DNA of 64,000 nucleotides from Reyranella sp. (GTDB lineage Bacteria; Pseudomonadota; Alphaproteobacteria; Reyranellales; Reyranellaceae), in NCBI RefSeq assembly GCF_017305915.1, contig NZ_JAFKJN010000015.1, positions 124,001-188,000 of the forward strand. Reading direction: 5' to 3'. Every line of letters begins with the position of its first letter. Position 1 is the first letter of the stretch. Positions 8,130 through 57,111 of the stretch are shown here, piece after piece. The position numbers were made by a program, and so were the translations under genes. The notes beneath the pieces are model-generated. The model saw only the letters and a list, made by a program, of their open reading frames with translations. It ran no database searches and was not told where the DNA came from.

Positions 8130-9209
8130 ATGGCGAACGACACGTCGCTGGGGGGACTCTTCGCGGGCAATCGCAAGCCGACCCAGTTCGGCCGCATCTT
8201 CAAGCCCGACCCGGCGTGGCTCGCCAAGGCCGAGCCCGAGCCGATCCTCGACCCCGAGCTCGCGGTGGTCGACACCCACCATCACCTGTGGGACATGCCG
8301 GGCTATCGCTATCTGCTCGACGACTTCCTGGCCGACGCGAACACCGGCCACAGGATCGTCGGCACCGTCTTCAACGAATGCCGTGCGATGTACCGCGCCA
8401 GGGGGCCGGAGGAGATGAAGCCGGTCGGCGAGGTCGAGTTCTGCGCCGGCATCGGTGCGATGAGCGACAGCGGGATCTATGGCCCAGCGCGTGTCTGCGC
8501 CGGCATCGTCGGCCACGCCGATCTCACCCTGGGCGACCGCGTCGAGGCCGTGCTCGAGGCCGAGATCGCCGCAAGCGGCCGTTTCCGCGGCATTCGCTAT
8601 GGTGCTGCGTGGGACGACGATCCGGTGATCGGCAACAGCCACGTCGCCAAGGGACCGGGCGTCCATCGCAGCGCCGGCTTCCGCGAGGGGCTGAAGCGTC
8701 TCACCAGGCTCGGCCTGTCGTTCGATGCCTGGATCTTCCATCACCAGGTCGGCGAGGTGACCGAGCTGGCGCGCGCCTTCCCCGACGCCAACATCGTGCT
8801 CTGCCACATGGGCGGCGTGCTGGGCTACGGCCGCTGGGCCGGCAGGAAGGACGAGGTCTACGCCGCGTGGAAGCCGGCGATGGCCGAGCTCGCCAGGTGC
8901 CCCAACGTCTCGGTCAAGGTCGGCGGGCTGATGATGCGGCTGGCCGCCATCGACTATCTCAACCTGCCGCGGCCGCCGACGTCGCAGGAGCTGGCCGACG
9001 CCTGGCGTCCTTACGCCGGCACCTGCATCGAGCTGTTTGGCGCCGACCGCTGCATGGTCGAGAGCAACTTCCCGGTCGAGAAGATGGGCATCGGCTATGC
9101 CGGCCTGTTCAACGCGCTGAAGCGCATCGCCGCCGGCGCCTCGGCCGACGAGAAGAAGGCGCTGTTCAGCGGCACCGCCAGGCGCGTCTATCGGCTGGCG
9201 ATCGACTAG
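8130..9209 (+). CDS. Amidohydrolase family 2 metal-dependent hydrolase
   Basis: This 359-residue TIM-barrel amidohydrolase has the metal-binding DTHHHLWDMPGYRY motif near residue 47, a central FHHQVGE strand near residue 208, CHMGG near residue 229 and the late VESNFPVEK segment near residue 310. The pattern resembles lactonases and decarboxylases of PF04909 such as L-fuconolactonase or LigI-type enzymes. The length is normal. Its TAG stop (9207-9209) is formed by the left end of the palindromic element described at 9206. The real substrate is unknown, but a lactone or aromatic acid fits the neighbourhood. Confidence 0.85.
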   Translation: MANDTSLGGLFAGNRKPTQFGRIFKPDPAWLAKAEPEPILDPELAVVDTHHHLWDMPGYRYLLDDFLADANTGHRIVGTVFNECRAMYRARGPEEMKPVGEVEFCAGIGAMSDSGIYGPARVCAGIVGHADLTLGDRVEAVLEAEIAASGRFRGIRYGAAWDDDPVIGNSHVAKGPGVHRSAGFREGLKRLTRLGLSFDAWIFHHQVGEVTELARAFPDANIVLCHMGGVLGYGRWAGRKDEVYAAWKPAMAELARCPNVSVKVGGLMMRLAAIDYLNLPRPPTSQELADAWRPYAGTCIELFGADRCMVESNFPVEKMGIGYAGLFNALKRIAAGASADEKKALFSGTARRVYRLAID

Positions 9210-9332
9210 AGCGATTTCCGAGCAGATGGAACCGCTCGCGGTTCCATCTGCTCGGAAATGCGCGCACGGGGGTTGTTGTTGCAGCAGGCATATTCCGTTC
9301 GGCTGATTCCAGCCGAACGGAATATGCTCTAG
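9206..9332. repeat. Palindromic extragenic element, copy 1 (two hairpins, CTAGAGC/GCTCTAG ends)
   Basis: A 127-base element is bounded by CTAGAGC (9206-9212) and its complement GCTCTAG (9326-9332). It contains two near-perfect hairpins: a 21-base-pair stem with loop CTCG (about 9214-9259) and an 18-base-pair stem with loop ATTC (about 9288-9327). The same arrangement recurs at 50089-50213, and a shortened version at 55746-55819. Base changes between copies are matched on both sides of the stems. It lies between two convergent genes. Confidence 0.9.
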
Positions 9333-14325: not shown

Positions 14326-14486
14326 CCTCCCTGCGCGCAGCGCGGGGAGGTGTCGCGGTAACCCGCGACGGAGGGGTCATGGGCTGCGGTGCTGGCGCTC
14401 ATGACCCCTCCGTCGGCCACGCGTTTTCGAGCGAAGCTCGAAAATCGCTCGGACGCCGACACCTCCCCGCGCTGCGCGCAGGGAGG
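14326..14486. repeat. Nested palindromic extragenic element
   Basis: A perfect 30-base inverted repeat (14326-14355 with 14457-14486) encloses a second perfect 16-base inverted repeat (14366-14381 with 14400-14415) and a small TTTTCGAGC/GCTCGAAAA hairpin at 14424-14444. The whole unit fills the gap between two plus-strand genes. It is unlike the CTAGAGC elements and carries no open frame that matters. It is probably a composite REP-like element capable of forming a long stem in the transcript. Confidence 0.85.
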
Positions 14487-27900: not shown

Positions 27901-28006
27901 TGTCATTCCGAGCGCAAGCGAGGGATCCTTGAGGCGACAGGAAAGATCCCTCGCTACGCTCGGGATGACAACGCTACGCTCGGGATAACAACGCTACGCT
28001 CGGGAC
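27901..28006. repeat. REP-like palindrome with a short tandem tail
   Basis: TGTCATTCCGAGCG at 27901-27914 pairs with the stretch ending CGCTCGGGATGACA at 27970, with GAGGGATC/GATCCCTC inside, forming a long hairpin. After it the 20-base unit ACGCTACGCTCGGGATAACA is repeated about two and a half times to 28006. A second member of the family is at 31938-32006. The repeat is immediately upstream of the small gene at 28015. Confidence 0.85.
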
Positions 28007-31937: not shown

Positions 31938-32006
31938 TGTCATCCCGAGCGTAGCGAGGGACCTTTACTGGTCCGGTAAAGGTCTCTTGCTACGCTCGAG
32001 ATGACA
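31938..32006. repeat. REP-like palindrome, second copy
   Basis: TGTCATCCCGAGCGTAGCGA at 31938 pairs with the stretch ending CTACGCTCGAGATGACA at 32006 around a TTTAC/GTAAA inner stem. It belongs to the same family as 27901-28006. The C-terminal codons and stop of the minus-strand gene at 31990 are read from its right arm. Confidence 0.85.
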
Positions 32007-49891: not shown

Positions 49892-50088
49892 GAGCGCGTC
49901 CCGCTCGCTCATGACTCTTACGCGCGCAGGATGCGCGCGATCCGGAAGAGCTTGACCCCTCCGTCAGAGGAAGGTGGCGGCGCTGTGCGCAACGGCGAGT
50001 TCCTCGGCCTTCAAGGCGCCGGAGGACGCCTTCGCGCTCATCGGCGACGCGGTGGGTTCCGCCGGCGACGGCACCCAGCCCGAAGCCA

Positions 50089-50213
50089 AGAGCGATTTCC
50101 GGGCAGATAGAACCGCTCGCGGTTCCATCTGCCCGGAAATGCGCGCACGGGGGTCGTTGTTGCAGCAGGCATATTCCGTTCGGCTGATTCCAGCCGAACG
50201 GAATATGCTCTAG
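50089..50213. repeat. Palindromic extragenic element, copy 2
   Basis: This is a 125-base copy of the element at 9206-9332 with the same two hairpins and the GCTCTAG end (50207-50213). The left end is AGAGC without CT. Relative to copy 1 the left stem carries a paired change (GAGCAG/CTGCTC to GGGCAG/CTGCCC). Its right end provides the TAG stop of the minus-strand gene at 50210. Confidence 0.9.
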
Positions 50214-50400: not shown

Positions 50401-50509
50401 GCCGACCTGTCGCTGACGGCGATCTGTCGCCGCTGACGCCGACCTGTCGCCGCTGACGCCGACCTGTCGCCGCTGACGCCGACCTGTCGCCGCTGACGGC
50501 GACCTGCGG
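50401..50509. repeat. Tandem repeat, 20-base unit
   Basis: Five to six units of GCCGACCTGTCGCCGCTGAC are arrayed head to tail between two minus-strand genes. The first unit lacks three bases and the second and last carry substitutions, while the three central units are identical. The unit length is not a multiple of three, and no gene uses it. Confidence 0.9.
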
Positions 50510-50537
50510 GCGGCAGTCCCGGCTCGATTTCCGGCGG

Positions 50538-55690: not shown

Positions 55691-55745
55691 AGTTGGCACC
55701 GCTTAGGGCTCGGTCGCGGCGACGGCGGAGCCCGCCTGACCGGCT

Positions 55746-55819
55746 CTAGAGCACCGGGATGCCTGTTGTGGCAGGCACATTCCGTCCGGCTGATTCCAGC
55801 TGGCCGGAATGTGCTCTAG
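55746..55819. repeat. Palindromic extragenic element, short copy 3
   Basis: This 74-base version is bounded by CTAGAGC (55746-55752) and GCTCTAG (55813-55819) and keeps only the right hairpin. Its stem differs from copy 1 by changes on both sides (for example TATTCC/GGAATA to CATTCC/GGAATG). The right end supplies the TAG stop of the minus-strand gene at 55816. Confidence 0.88.
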
Positions 55820-57111
55820 GTAAGCACGTAGACCGACGTGCGCGCCTGCCAGTCGGTGCCGGTCCACGGCCGCGAATCCGGGCCGACGCCGCCGTGTGAT
55901 TCGACGGTGCGGCCGTTGTGGATCAGCGCGACGTGGCCGATGTTGCTGGGCGAATCCTGCGGCCGCAGGAAGGCGATGCGCACGACGCCGTCGAGGTTCT
56001 GGCCGGCGGCTACGTCGACCTTGGCGAAGCCCTGCGCGCGCACCCAGTCGTGCTGCACCACCGAGCCGTCGGGAAACTGCAGCCGCGGCGGATGCGGTGT
56101 CGCCCGCCGCAGCGCGGCGCGGATGAAGCCGCTGCAATCGACCCTGGTGAAGCCGCCGCTGCCCGGCGGCTGGGTGTCGACCGGCACGATCTTGGCGCCG
56201 AGCCCGTAGCCGACGCGCGGCGTCGACGTGAGGCAGTCTTGCAGGAACTGCTGCACGGCGGGCATGTCGATCTGCAGCGTCGGCACCGCGGCGGGCGGTG
56301 CCGCCGGGGCCGGGCCGTTGGCGGCGGCGATCGCTTCGGCGGTCACGGCGGCGGGTGCGGCCTCGTCGTCGAGGATCGGGCGCGCCGGATCCTGGTCGGC
56401 GGCTTCGGCGAGATTGGCGTTGGCGACCATCAGCGCATGCAACGGCGGCGGCGGCGCGAAATGCGCCGGCGCCAGCGCGGCCAGGCGGCTGAACTGGCCG
56501 AAGTCGGGGCCGTTGACCGCGTCGTCGTCGACATCGACGCCGGCGAGCGGCGGCACGCCGCAGGTCTGGCTGATCTTCCATTGGCGCGATTGGAAATACG
56601 TGCCGTGCTCGGCGAAGCTGCTCGAGCAGGACAGCCAGGTGTCGGTGACCAGCCCGTCCTCGACCAGGCGGCGGCAGACCAGGCCGTCGCTGTAGACGCC
56701 GATGCGGTAGGGCATGGTGCCGTCGGCGCGGGTGAATACCGCCTTCACGGCGGTGAAGTAGGGGACGATGTTGCTGGCGTAGGCCGCGCCCCGCTCGTCG
56801 TAGTCGGCGCCGAAATAGATGGTGGTGCCCTCGGGCTGGCCGACCAGCTCCTGGGCGCATTGCAGGGCGCGGGCGGCGTCGGCCTCGCCGCGCGCCTTGC
56901 TGAACCATTGCGGGGCGTTGCCCCAGAACTGGAAGACCGCCCAGATCGAGATGCCGTGCGCGTGCAGCGCCTGCGCCTCGAGCCGCGTCAGGACCTTCGA
57001 GCCCGAGCCGTAGTTGTAGTAGCGGCCGACCGCCTTGACGCCGGCGGCGGCGAGGCCCGCCGCGGACGAGGTCAGCCGCGTGCTGGCGTCGATGTATTGC
57101 CTGCTGGCCAT
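55816..57111 (-). CDS. DUF1906 glycoside-hydrolase-like domain fused to NlpC/P60-type domain
   Basis: In this 431-residue protein the first half is a Rv2525c-like (DUF1906) TIM barrel: YIDASTRLTSSAAGLAAAGV, GRYYNYGSGSK, EGTTIYFGADYDERG and PYRIGVYSDG. After a proline/alanine-rich linker the second half has a cysteine in RVDCSGFIRAALRRA near residue 330 and a histidine in GHVALIHNGRTVESHGG near residue 395, as in NlpC/P60 amidases. No signal peptide is seen, so export by a phage-like or type VI route is possible. It probably acts on peptidoglycan. Confidence 0.78.
   Translation of the reverse strand: MASRQYIDASTRLTSSAAGLAAAGVKAVGRYYNYGSGSKVLTRLEAQALHAHGISIWAVFQFWGNAPQWFSKARGEADAARALQCAQELVGQPEGTTIYFGADYDERGAAYASNIVPYFTAVKAVFTRADGTMPYRIGVYSDGLVCRRLVEDGLVTDTWLSCSSSFAEHGTYFQSRQWKISQTCGVPPLAGVDVDDDAVNGPDFGQFSRLAALAPAHFAPPPPLHALMVANANLAEAADQDPARPILDDEAAPAAVTAEAIAAANGPAPAAPPAAVPTLQIDMPAVQQFLQDCLTSTPRVGYGLGAKIVPVDTQPPGSGGFTRVDCSGFIRAALRRATPHPPRLQFPDGSVVQHDWVRAQGFAKVDVAAGQNLDGVVRIAFLRPQDSPSNIGHVALIHNGRTVESHGGVGPDSRPWTGTDWQARTSVYVLT

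Follow-up and report, generated by a model that had tools for sequence, protein, structure and literature searches.

A 127-bp palindromic element lies at the very 3' end of an amidohydrolase-like gene in the genome of Reyranella sp., raising the question of what this element is and how it could come to share the stop codon of its neighbor. The DNA considered here, termed the window, is a stretch of 64,000 nucleotides (NCBI RefSeq assembly GCF_017305915.1, contig NZ_JAFKJN010000015.1, positions 124,001 to 188,000 of the forward strand), with position 1 corresponding to its first nucleotide. A first-pass annotation, made from the sequence alone, had described three copies of an extragenic palindromic element in the window (9206-9332, 50089-50213, and 55746-55819), sharing hairpins and CTAGAGC/GCTCTAG ends. 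All three copies are indeed present, with the second beginning at 50087 rather than 50089 and the third being partial. The features concerned are as follows:

8130..9209, + strand: amidohydrolase-like gene (PF04909), ending at the left TAG of copy 1 (ORF, Pfam)
9206..9332, + strand: copy 1, full 127-bp element, from CTAG to CTAG (empty site in relative G005)
9206..9209, + strand: left CTAG of copy 1, its TAG (9207-9209) serving as the stop of ORF 8130-9209
9211..9265, + strand: left hairpin arm of copy 1, 24 pairs (RNAalifold structure)
9287..9328, + strand: right hairpin arm of copy 1, 19 pairs (RNAalifold structure)
9305..9309, + strand: GATTC (GANTC) at the right-arm loop of copy 1 (sequence)
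9329..9332, + strand: right CTAG of copy 1, the second copy of the target (sequence, empty site)
50087..50213, + strand: copy 2, full element, left end CAAG (decayed from CTAG), right end still CTAG
55746..55819, + strand: copy 3, 74-bp form, right arm only (model match 55720-55819)
55816..57111, - strand: Rv2525c-like glycoside-hydrolase-domain gene (PF08924), with its TAG stop within the right CTAG of copy 3

The ends ascribed to the family are exact in copy 1, which runs precisely from CTAG to CTAG. The left end of copy 2, CAAG, corresponds to a T to A change from CTAG, while copy 3 is without a left arm and as such is not a full copy. When folding was compared with that of shuffled sequences, z-values of -11.7, -9.4, and -5.8 were obtained for copies 1, 2, and 3, respectively, with none of 200 shuffles scoring as well in each case. 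The window contains the motif CTAGAGC 11 times, as compared to a shuffle mean of 3.9 (one of 100 shuffles was as high), five of these occurrences being the ends of the elements themselves. The change in the left stem from GAGCAG/CTGCTC to GGGCAG/CTGCCC described in the first-pass annotation is real and distinguishes copies 1 and 2, with the left arm of copy 2 also containing one uncompensated change (ATAGAACC/GGTTCCAT). Of the two-sided changes proposed for the right stem of copy 3, a C-G/T-A change is likewise real; one pair of copy 3 is mismatched.

Copy 3 and another locus, L099, are shorter forms that contain only the right arm and keep the CTAGAGC left end; such forms look like a sub-family rather than random truncations. 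Elsewhere in the window are found a tandem 20-bp repeat (50411-50510, approximately five copies of CGCTGACGCCGACCTGTCGC), a perfect 30-bp inverted repeat unrelated to the element (14326-14355 and 14457-14486, arms 101 bp apart), and an inverted 54-bp pair (27917-27970 and 31938-31991, motif GAGGGATC...CGCTCGGGATGACA) that represents another dispersed palindrome type.

Copy Number and Distribution

The first-pass annotation had set a genome-wide search for further copies as a test of the family. Upon BLASTN searching of the own assembly (6.47 Mb, 58 contigs), 40 near-full copies were scored, all ending in CTAG or a sequence close to it; they occur in either orientation, and their flanks are unrelated. 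As these copies are 93-100% identical to copy 1, they look young. A covariance model constructed from 32 copies of the genus (alignments A1 and R1) yielded at least 149 rows at E ≤ 0.01, merging to at least 88 distinct loci, a lower bound given that 150 of 3013 candidates were scored. Many of the extra rows correspond to the left arm read on the opposite strand. Among these at least 88 loci, 64 are 120 bp or longer and nine are shorter than 90 bp.

Within the genus, the element was matched in 18 of 41 Reyranella genomes at a threshold of E ≤ 1e-4, and 12 of these genomes contain at least 18 matches. In one relative, G005, three loci (L060, L062, and L063) present a subtype with an enlarged left-arm loop, seen as model matches of 149-164 bases. 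Across the class, a match at E ≤ 1e-4 was obtained in 17 of 289 sampled alphaproteobacterial genomes, the own genome included. Most of the elements among the 26 of 28 class-wide loci listed follow a single plan, namely, CTAGAGC-arm-linker-arm-GCTCTAG, in which the arm sequences are unrelated and the second loop often contains GATTC. Of these loci, L133 seems to be a spurious match, and L125, L126, L136, and L138 resemble lone arms. No match was obtained when a plasmid collection was searched with the 127-bp query.

Conservation of the Two Arms

The full element measures 127 bp and comprises a 24-pair arm, a linker, and a 19-pair arm. In alignment A1, 98.4% of 1370 cells are standard pairs, and 28 of the 43 pairs are changed on both sides, giving 180 two-sided cells. 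By contrast, shuffled alignments gave a mean of 39 two-sided cells, with none of 500 being as high, while sliding the structure by 1-3 columns gave 20-39. The earlier conclusion that the paired changes reflect conservation of the fold is therefore right. Variation in the stems without compensating changes had been named beforehand as grounds for rejecting the family; compensating changes instead dominate and, together with the copies found across the genome, fully support the family as being palindromic, dispersed, and covarying in its stems.

This does not, however, amount to proof of a fold at the RNA level. Among 41 non-redundant rows, 217 two-sided cells were counted, as compared to 65 G.T, 13 A.C, and 18 other mismatches. 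A fixed pair at the foot is G-U in 31 of the 32 A1 rows and presumably accounts for most of the G.T cells of the right arm; once this pair is set aside, G.T is only mildly more common than A.C, and intermediates are few. Because two-sided changes far outnumber intermediates, and because DNA-level correction of the palindrome could give the same pattern, the constraint on the arms fits the RNA level or the DNA level alike, with the mismatch counts not deciding between the two.

GANTC is found in the right arm in 66 of 85 aligned matches, in 26 of 41 after removal of similar rows, and, as read by eye from alignment A3, in nine of 13 elements from outside Reyranella. At the left end of 43 full copies of the own genome, CTAG is found 42 times and TTAG once, while at the right end, CTAG is found 37 times, CTAA four times, and CTAT and CCAG once each.

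Empty Sites

Insertion was considered by comparing the joined flanks of 14 own loci with the genus and those of 18 more loci (18 of 29 further loci listed) with three close relatives, 32 loci in all. Clean empty sites were found at three loci. For L015, the empty site in G005 is CTAG (...gcggcggaCTAGaacccc...), while G036 and G027 read CTAGGG at the same place. For L004, G005 contains a single CTAG. For window copy 1 (L001), G005 contains TTAG, reading ...ggctggcgatcgaTTAGCCCGTTTCGACC..., such that the TAG present at copy 1 also exists in the element-free relative. At all three loci, the joined flanks score better with one CTAG than without. With one YTAG in the empty site and two in the filled site, YTAG, or the TA within, is duplicated upon insertion; duplication of TA and duplication of CTAG leave the same empty-site pattern and are thus indistinguishable.

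In alignments of one flank only, YTAG was present without the element at L098 (CTAG in four of five relatives), L027, L017, L008, and L022, while for L003, with only one flank aligned, the element-free relative reads ATAG. Counter-cases were also encountered, in that relatives aligned on both flanks of L018, L092, L095, and L102 have no YTAG; at L018, G005 has CTGA at the corresponding bases, as do both relatives at L092.

The Element Sits in the Register of the Stop Codon

The possibility that other copies share a stop codon with the neighboring gene, as does copy 1, was considered for 43 own copies and 37 copies of relatives, the set obtained after dropping repeated flanks. With coding flanks defined by at least 50 open codons and by GC at the third position, a rule chosen after an early look at the results, the terminal CTAG provides an in-frame TAG stop for 39 of the 40 coding flanks in the own genome (p = 7e-18, relative to one third) and for 21 of the 23 in the relatives. 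The other flanks were either shorter than 155 bp (four own, two relative) or lacked a coding frame extending as far as the element (42 own, 49 relative). Overall, 32 of the 43 own copies are in register on at least one side, and seven of the 43 on both sides, lying between convergent genes that each end in one CTAG. In other alphaproteobacterial genomes and families, 11 of 12 coding flanks (20 elements) are in stop register. As background, CTAG sequences of the window that do not belong to elements are in register in three of six coding flanks (p = 0.005 against the 39 of 40 of the elements, in what is a small sample). CTAG is moreover scarce in the window, with 22 occurrences as compared to approximately 81 expected. 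The term 'extragenic', as applied to the family in the first-pass annotation, thus needs refining, since the outer CTAG usually holds the stop codon of the neighboring gene. We read the register as reflecting the targeting of CTAG together with the loss of harmful insertions, the shares of each not being separated.

Strict placement at gene ends, strong conservation of pairs, and the seven own copies with gene ends on both sides would also be in keeping with a selected RNA 3'-end module, i.e., a bidirectional terminator or mRNA stabilizer, spread by recombination rather than by transposition. Yet, empty sites with exact YTAG bounds in otherwise aligned flanks, as well as near-identical copies in unrelated flanks, are what is expected from transposition, and a terminator-like site was sought at copy 1 and not found. 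Such a module is accordingly thought quite improbable, whereas the reading of the element as a MITE that inserts at YTAG is well supported.

An IS630 Subgroup as Candidate Mobilizer

When 12 genomes that carry the element were searched for DDE_3 (PF13358), IS630-type elements were found, several with CTAG-GAGCG ends. One (L220) has CTAGAGCGGGATGA at both ends and another (L222) has CTAGAGCGTGATGG/CTAGAGCGGGATGG, with the IS630-type elements of the genus presenting the Pfam domains HTH_Tnp_IS630 and DDE_3. In both L220 and L222, the transposase lies in two frames (an HTH part and a DDE part), as if produced by frameshifting, and GATTC/GAATC sites are found at one end of each. A different IS630-type element, L231 (G330:C284), has CTAG-TGTCCTGTCG ends, pointing to the CTAG target as being common to IS630 elements with other TIRs.

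When named genomes were scanned with one such transposase, 80 loci were obtained, and at 52 of these a pair of inverted repeats adjoining TA could be detected. Of these 52 detected repeats, 49 begin with GAGC, mostly after CTA or TTA, with few exceptions. Hosts of such GAGC-ended IS630 elements include Bradyrhizobium, Mesorhizobium, Jiella, Labrys, Azospirillum, and Gluconacetobacter, among others. The IS630 family is described as duplicating TA in the available text of PMC2170065, the reference list of which contains one title on transposition to TA in 5'-CTAG-3'. What is reliably common to the elements and the insertion sequences is CTAGAGC, often with G as the next base; similarity of the ends beyond this is weak (mean p = 0.075, best p = 0.019). 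One subfamily of elements (L074, L080, and L086) and an insertion sequence end of G014 are alike at eight of nine bases beyond CTAGAGC.

The IS630 subgroup was not associated with the element, a full-length member being found in six of 12 element-rich genomes, as compared to nine of the 29 remaining genomes (Fisher p = 0.30). Although the 40 scored copies of the element in the own draft assembly look young, only decayed IS630 remnants were seen there, with no intact copy found. Nor do the IS630 copies themselves show the stop register (three of seven coding flanks in 38 copies, 40 of the 80 loci having entered the test and 38 having both ends). On the strength of its ends, the IS630 subgroup is the best candidate mobilizer of the element, one as yet unproven.

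A MITE inserting at YTAG in the same manner could, moreover, be moved by some other TA- or CTAG-duplicating transposase, such as one of the IS5/IS427 type, to which IS711 of Brucella belongs. IS711 duplicates TA at YTAR and is found inserted in a Bru-RS1 element, according to the available text of PMC3163539, and both the lack of an intact IS630 in the own genome and the lack of IS630-element association in the genus are in line with another transposase being involved. Given the CTAG-GAGC ends of the IS630 subgroup, and with the search covering transposases of the IS630 and RAYT types, such an enzyme is nonetheless considered unlikely.

The first-pass annotation had suggested a RAYT transposase as partner. 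The element does have two inverted hairpins and a tetranucleotide foot, as would a REPIN-like pair of hairpins that has CTAG as its feet and relies on a RAYT tyrosine transposase for movement, and the genome encodes one RAYT (NF047646). This sole RAYT gene (L049, G000:C7, approximately 10.8 kb, positions 1395-2024) lies, however, between its own 42-bp inverted repeats, which are 93% complementary and unrelated to the element, and together with these constitutes a separate small mobile unit. Across the 41 genomes, RAYT presence was not linked to element abundance (eight of 12 element-rich and 14 of 29 other genomes; Fisher p = 0.32). To our knowledge, a duplicated YTAG is not expected from IS200/IS605-type insertion. 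The suggestion of a RAYT partner thus finds no support, and mobilization by this route is deemed highly improbable.

Relation to Known Repeat Families

RIME elements of rhizobia contain palindromes. For comparison with RIME1, the first 50 kb of Sinorhizobium meliloti pSymB were considered and found to contain no CTAGAGC-bounded unit of 40-170 bp. That stretch gave a single model match, which, at E = 0.009 and 17 bits and with four non-standard pairs, appears to be due to chance. Searching of Rfam, with the window at gathering thresholds and with 13 loci at E ≤ 0.01, revealed no match. At the level of sequence, and as far as Rfam goes, the earlier remark that the family matches no named repeat thus holds; as a kind, however, it fits the anatomy of the CIR.

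The Caulobacter CcrM-associated intergenic repeats (CIR1-4) are described in the available text of PMC2229807 as having two inverted-repeat arms, a linker, GANTC in a loop, and TA ends. Like the element studied here, they are approximately 110-130 bp long, occur at high copy number in alphaproteobacteria, and combine a pair of long inverted-repeat arms, separated by a linker, with 5'-TA termini and with GANTC at the loop of one of the arms (PMC2229807). The same text gives CIR target duplication as unknown and their movement as needing more information, while in the available text of a 2024 review (PMC10969869), CIR are strictly intergenic and IS630 is not mentioned. By contrast, empty sites of YTAG size and a stop-codon register are seen here, and GANTC is not strict, given its absence from part of the non-redundant rows. 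Likened by published description rather than by sequence, the anatomy of the element would appear to match the CIR type of Caulobacter and Brucella. The Bru-RS1/2 elements of Brucella (103-106 bp), again compared by description only, are also palindromic and intergenic.

RUP, Correia/NEMIS, and ERIC-type MITEs are likewise small, structured, non-coding, and TA-ended, with RUP having been linked to an IS630, according to the available text of PMC2229807. In these, however, the 5' and 3' ends pair into one stem, whereas the present element has two independent arms. REP and REPIN sequences are repeated extragenic palindromes often found at gene ends. As the available text of PMC3733652 has it, REPs are marked by GTAG or CGTC feet, with GTAG repeats being associated with RAYT genes; here, the feet are CTAG and the RAYT gene is not flanked by these repeats. 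Among titles and abstracts, no paper tying CIR or RIME to IS630 or to stop codons was found; since this coverage mostly leaves out subscription papers, such absence is no proof of novelty.

Proposed Mechanism and Its Meaning

The element consists of two hairpin arms and a linker, bounded by CTAG-GAGC, and comparison with the empty sites shows that it inserts at YTAG, mostly CTAG, leaving one YTAG at each end. Most copies sit where YTAG provides the TAG stop of a gene, and the neighboring gene still ends in TAG. In the mechanism proposed, the true duplication would be of the central TA, effected in trans, at the GAGC ends, by a transposase of the IS630 family (Tc1/mariner type); IS630 elements with ends beginning with GAGC occur in the genus and in the class. 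Scarcity of the CTAG target elsewhere and loss of gene-breaking insertions may jointly produce the stop register, with each insertion remaking the stop that it hit. Selection, be it on a transcript 3' end or on a hairpin in DNA, may keep the arms symmetrical, as may DNA-level palindrome correction, these alternatives not being separable. Taken as a whole, the explanation of the element as a non-autonomous CIR-type MITE inserting at YTAG in stop register, with an IS630 transposase acting in trans, is held to be reasonably probable.

While the kind of element is already known, the empty sites, the stop register, and the IS630 subgroup with the same ends provide new mechanistic evidence. Together, these offer a concrete, testable model of how CIR-type repeats move, the source paper on CIR dating from 2003, and the register could straightforwardly explain how a high copy number is reached in a compact genome without gene breakage. 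More tentatively, CIR-like mini-transposons may exist throughout the Alphaproteobacteria for which the TAG in YTAG serves as a safe harbor, with the duplication made by the IS630 subgroup rebuilding the stop on both sides. Were this so, such elements would enter the exact ends of genes harmlessly, even where two convergent genes are hit together, each gene would gain a new hairpin 3' end, and the question of how CIR-type repeats move would have its answer.
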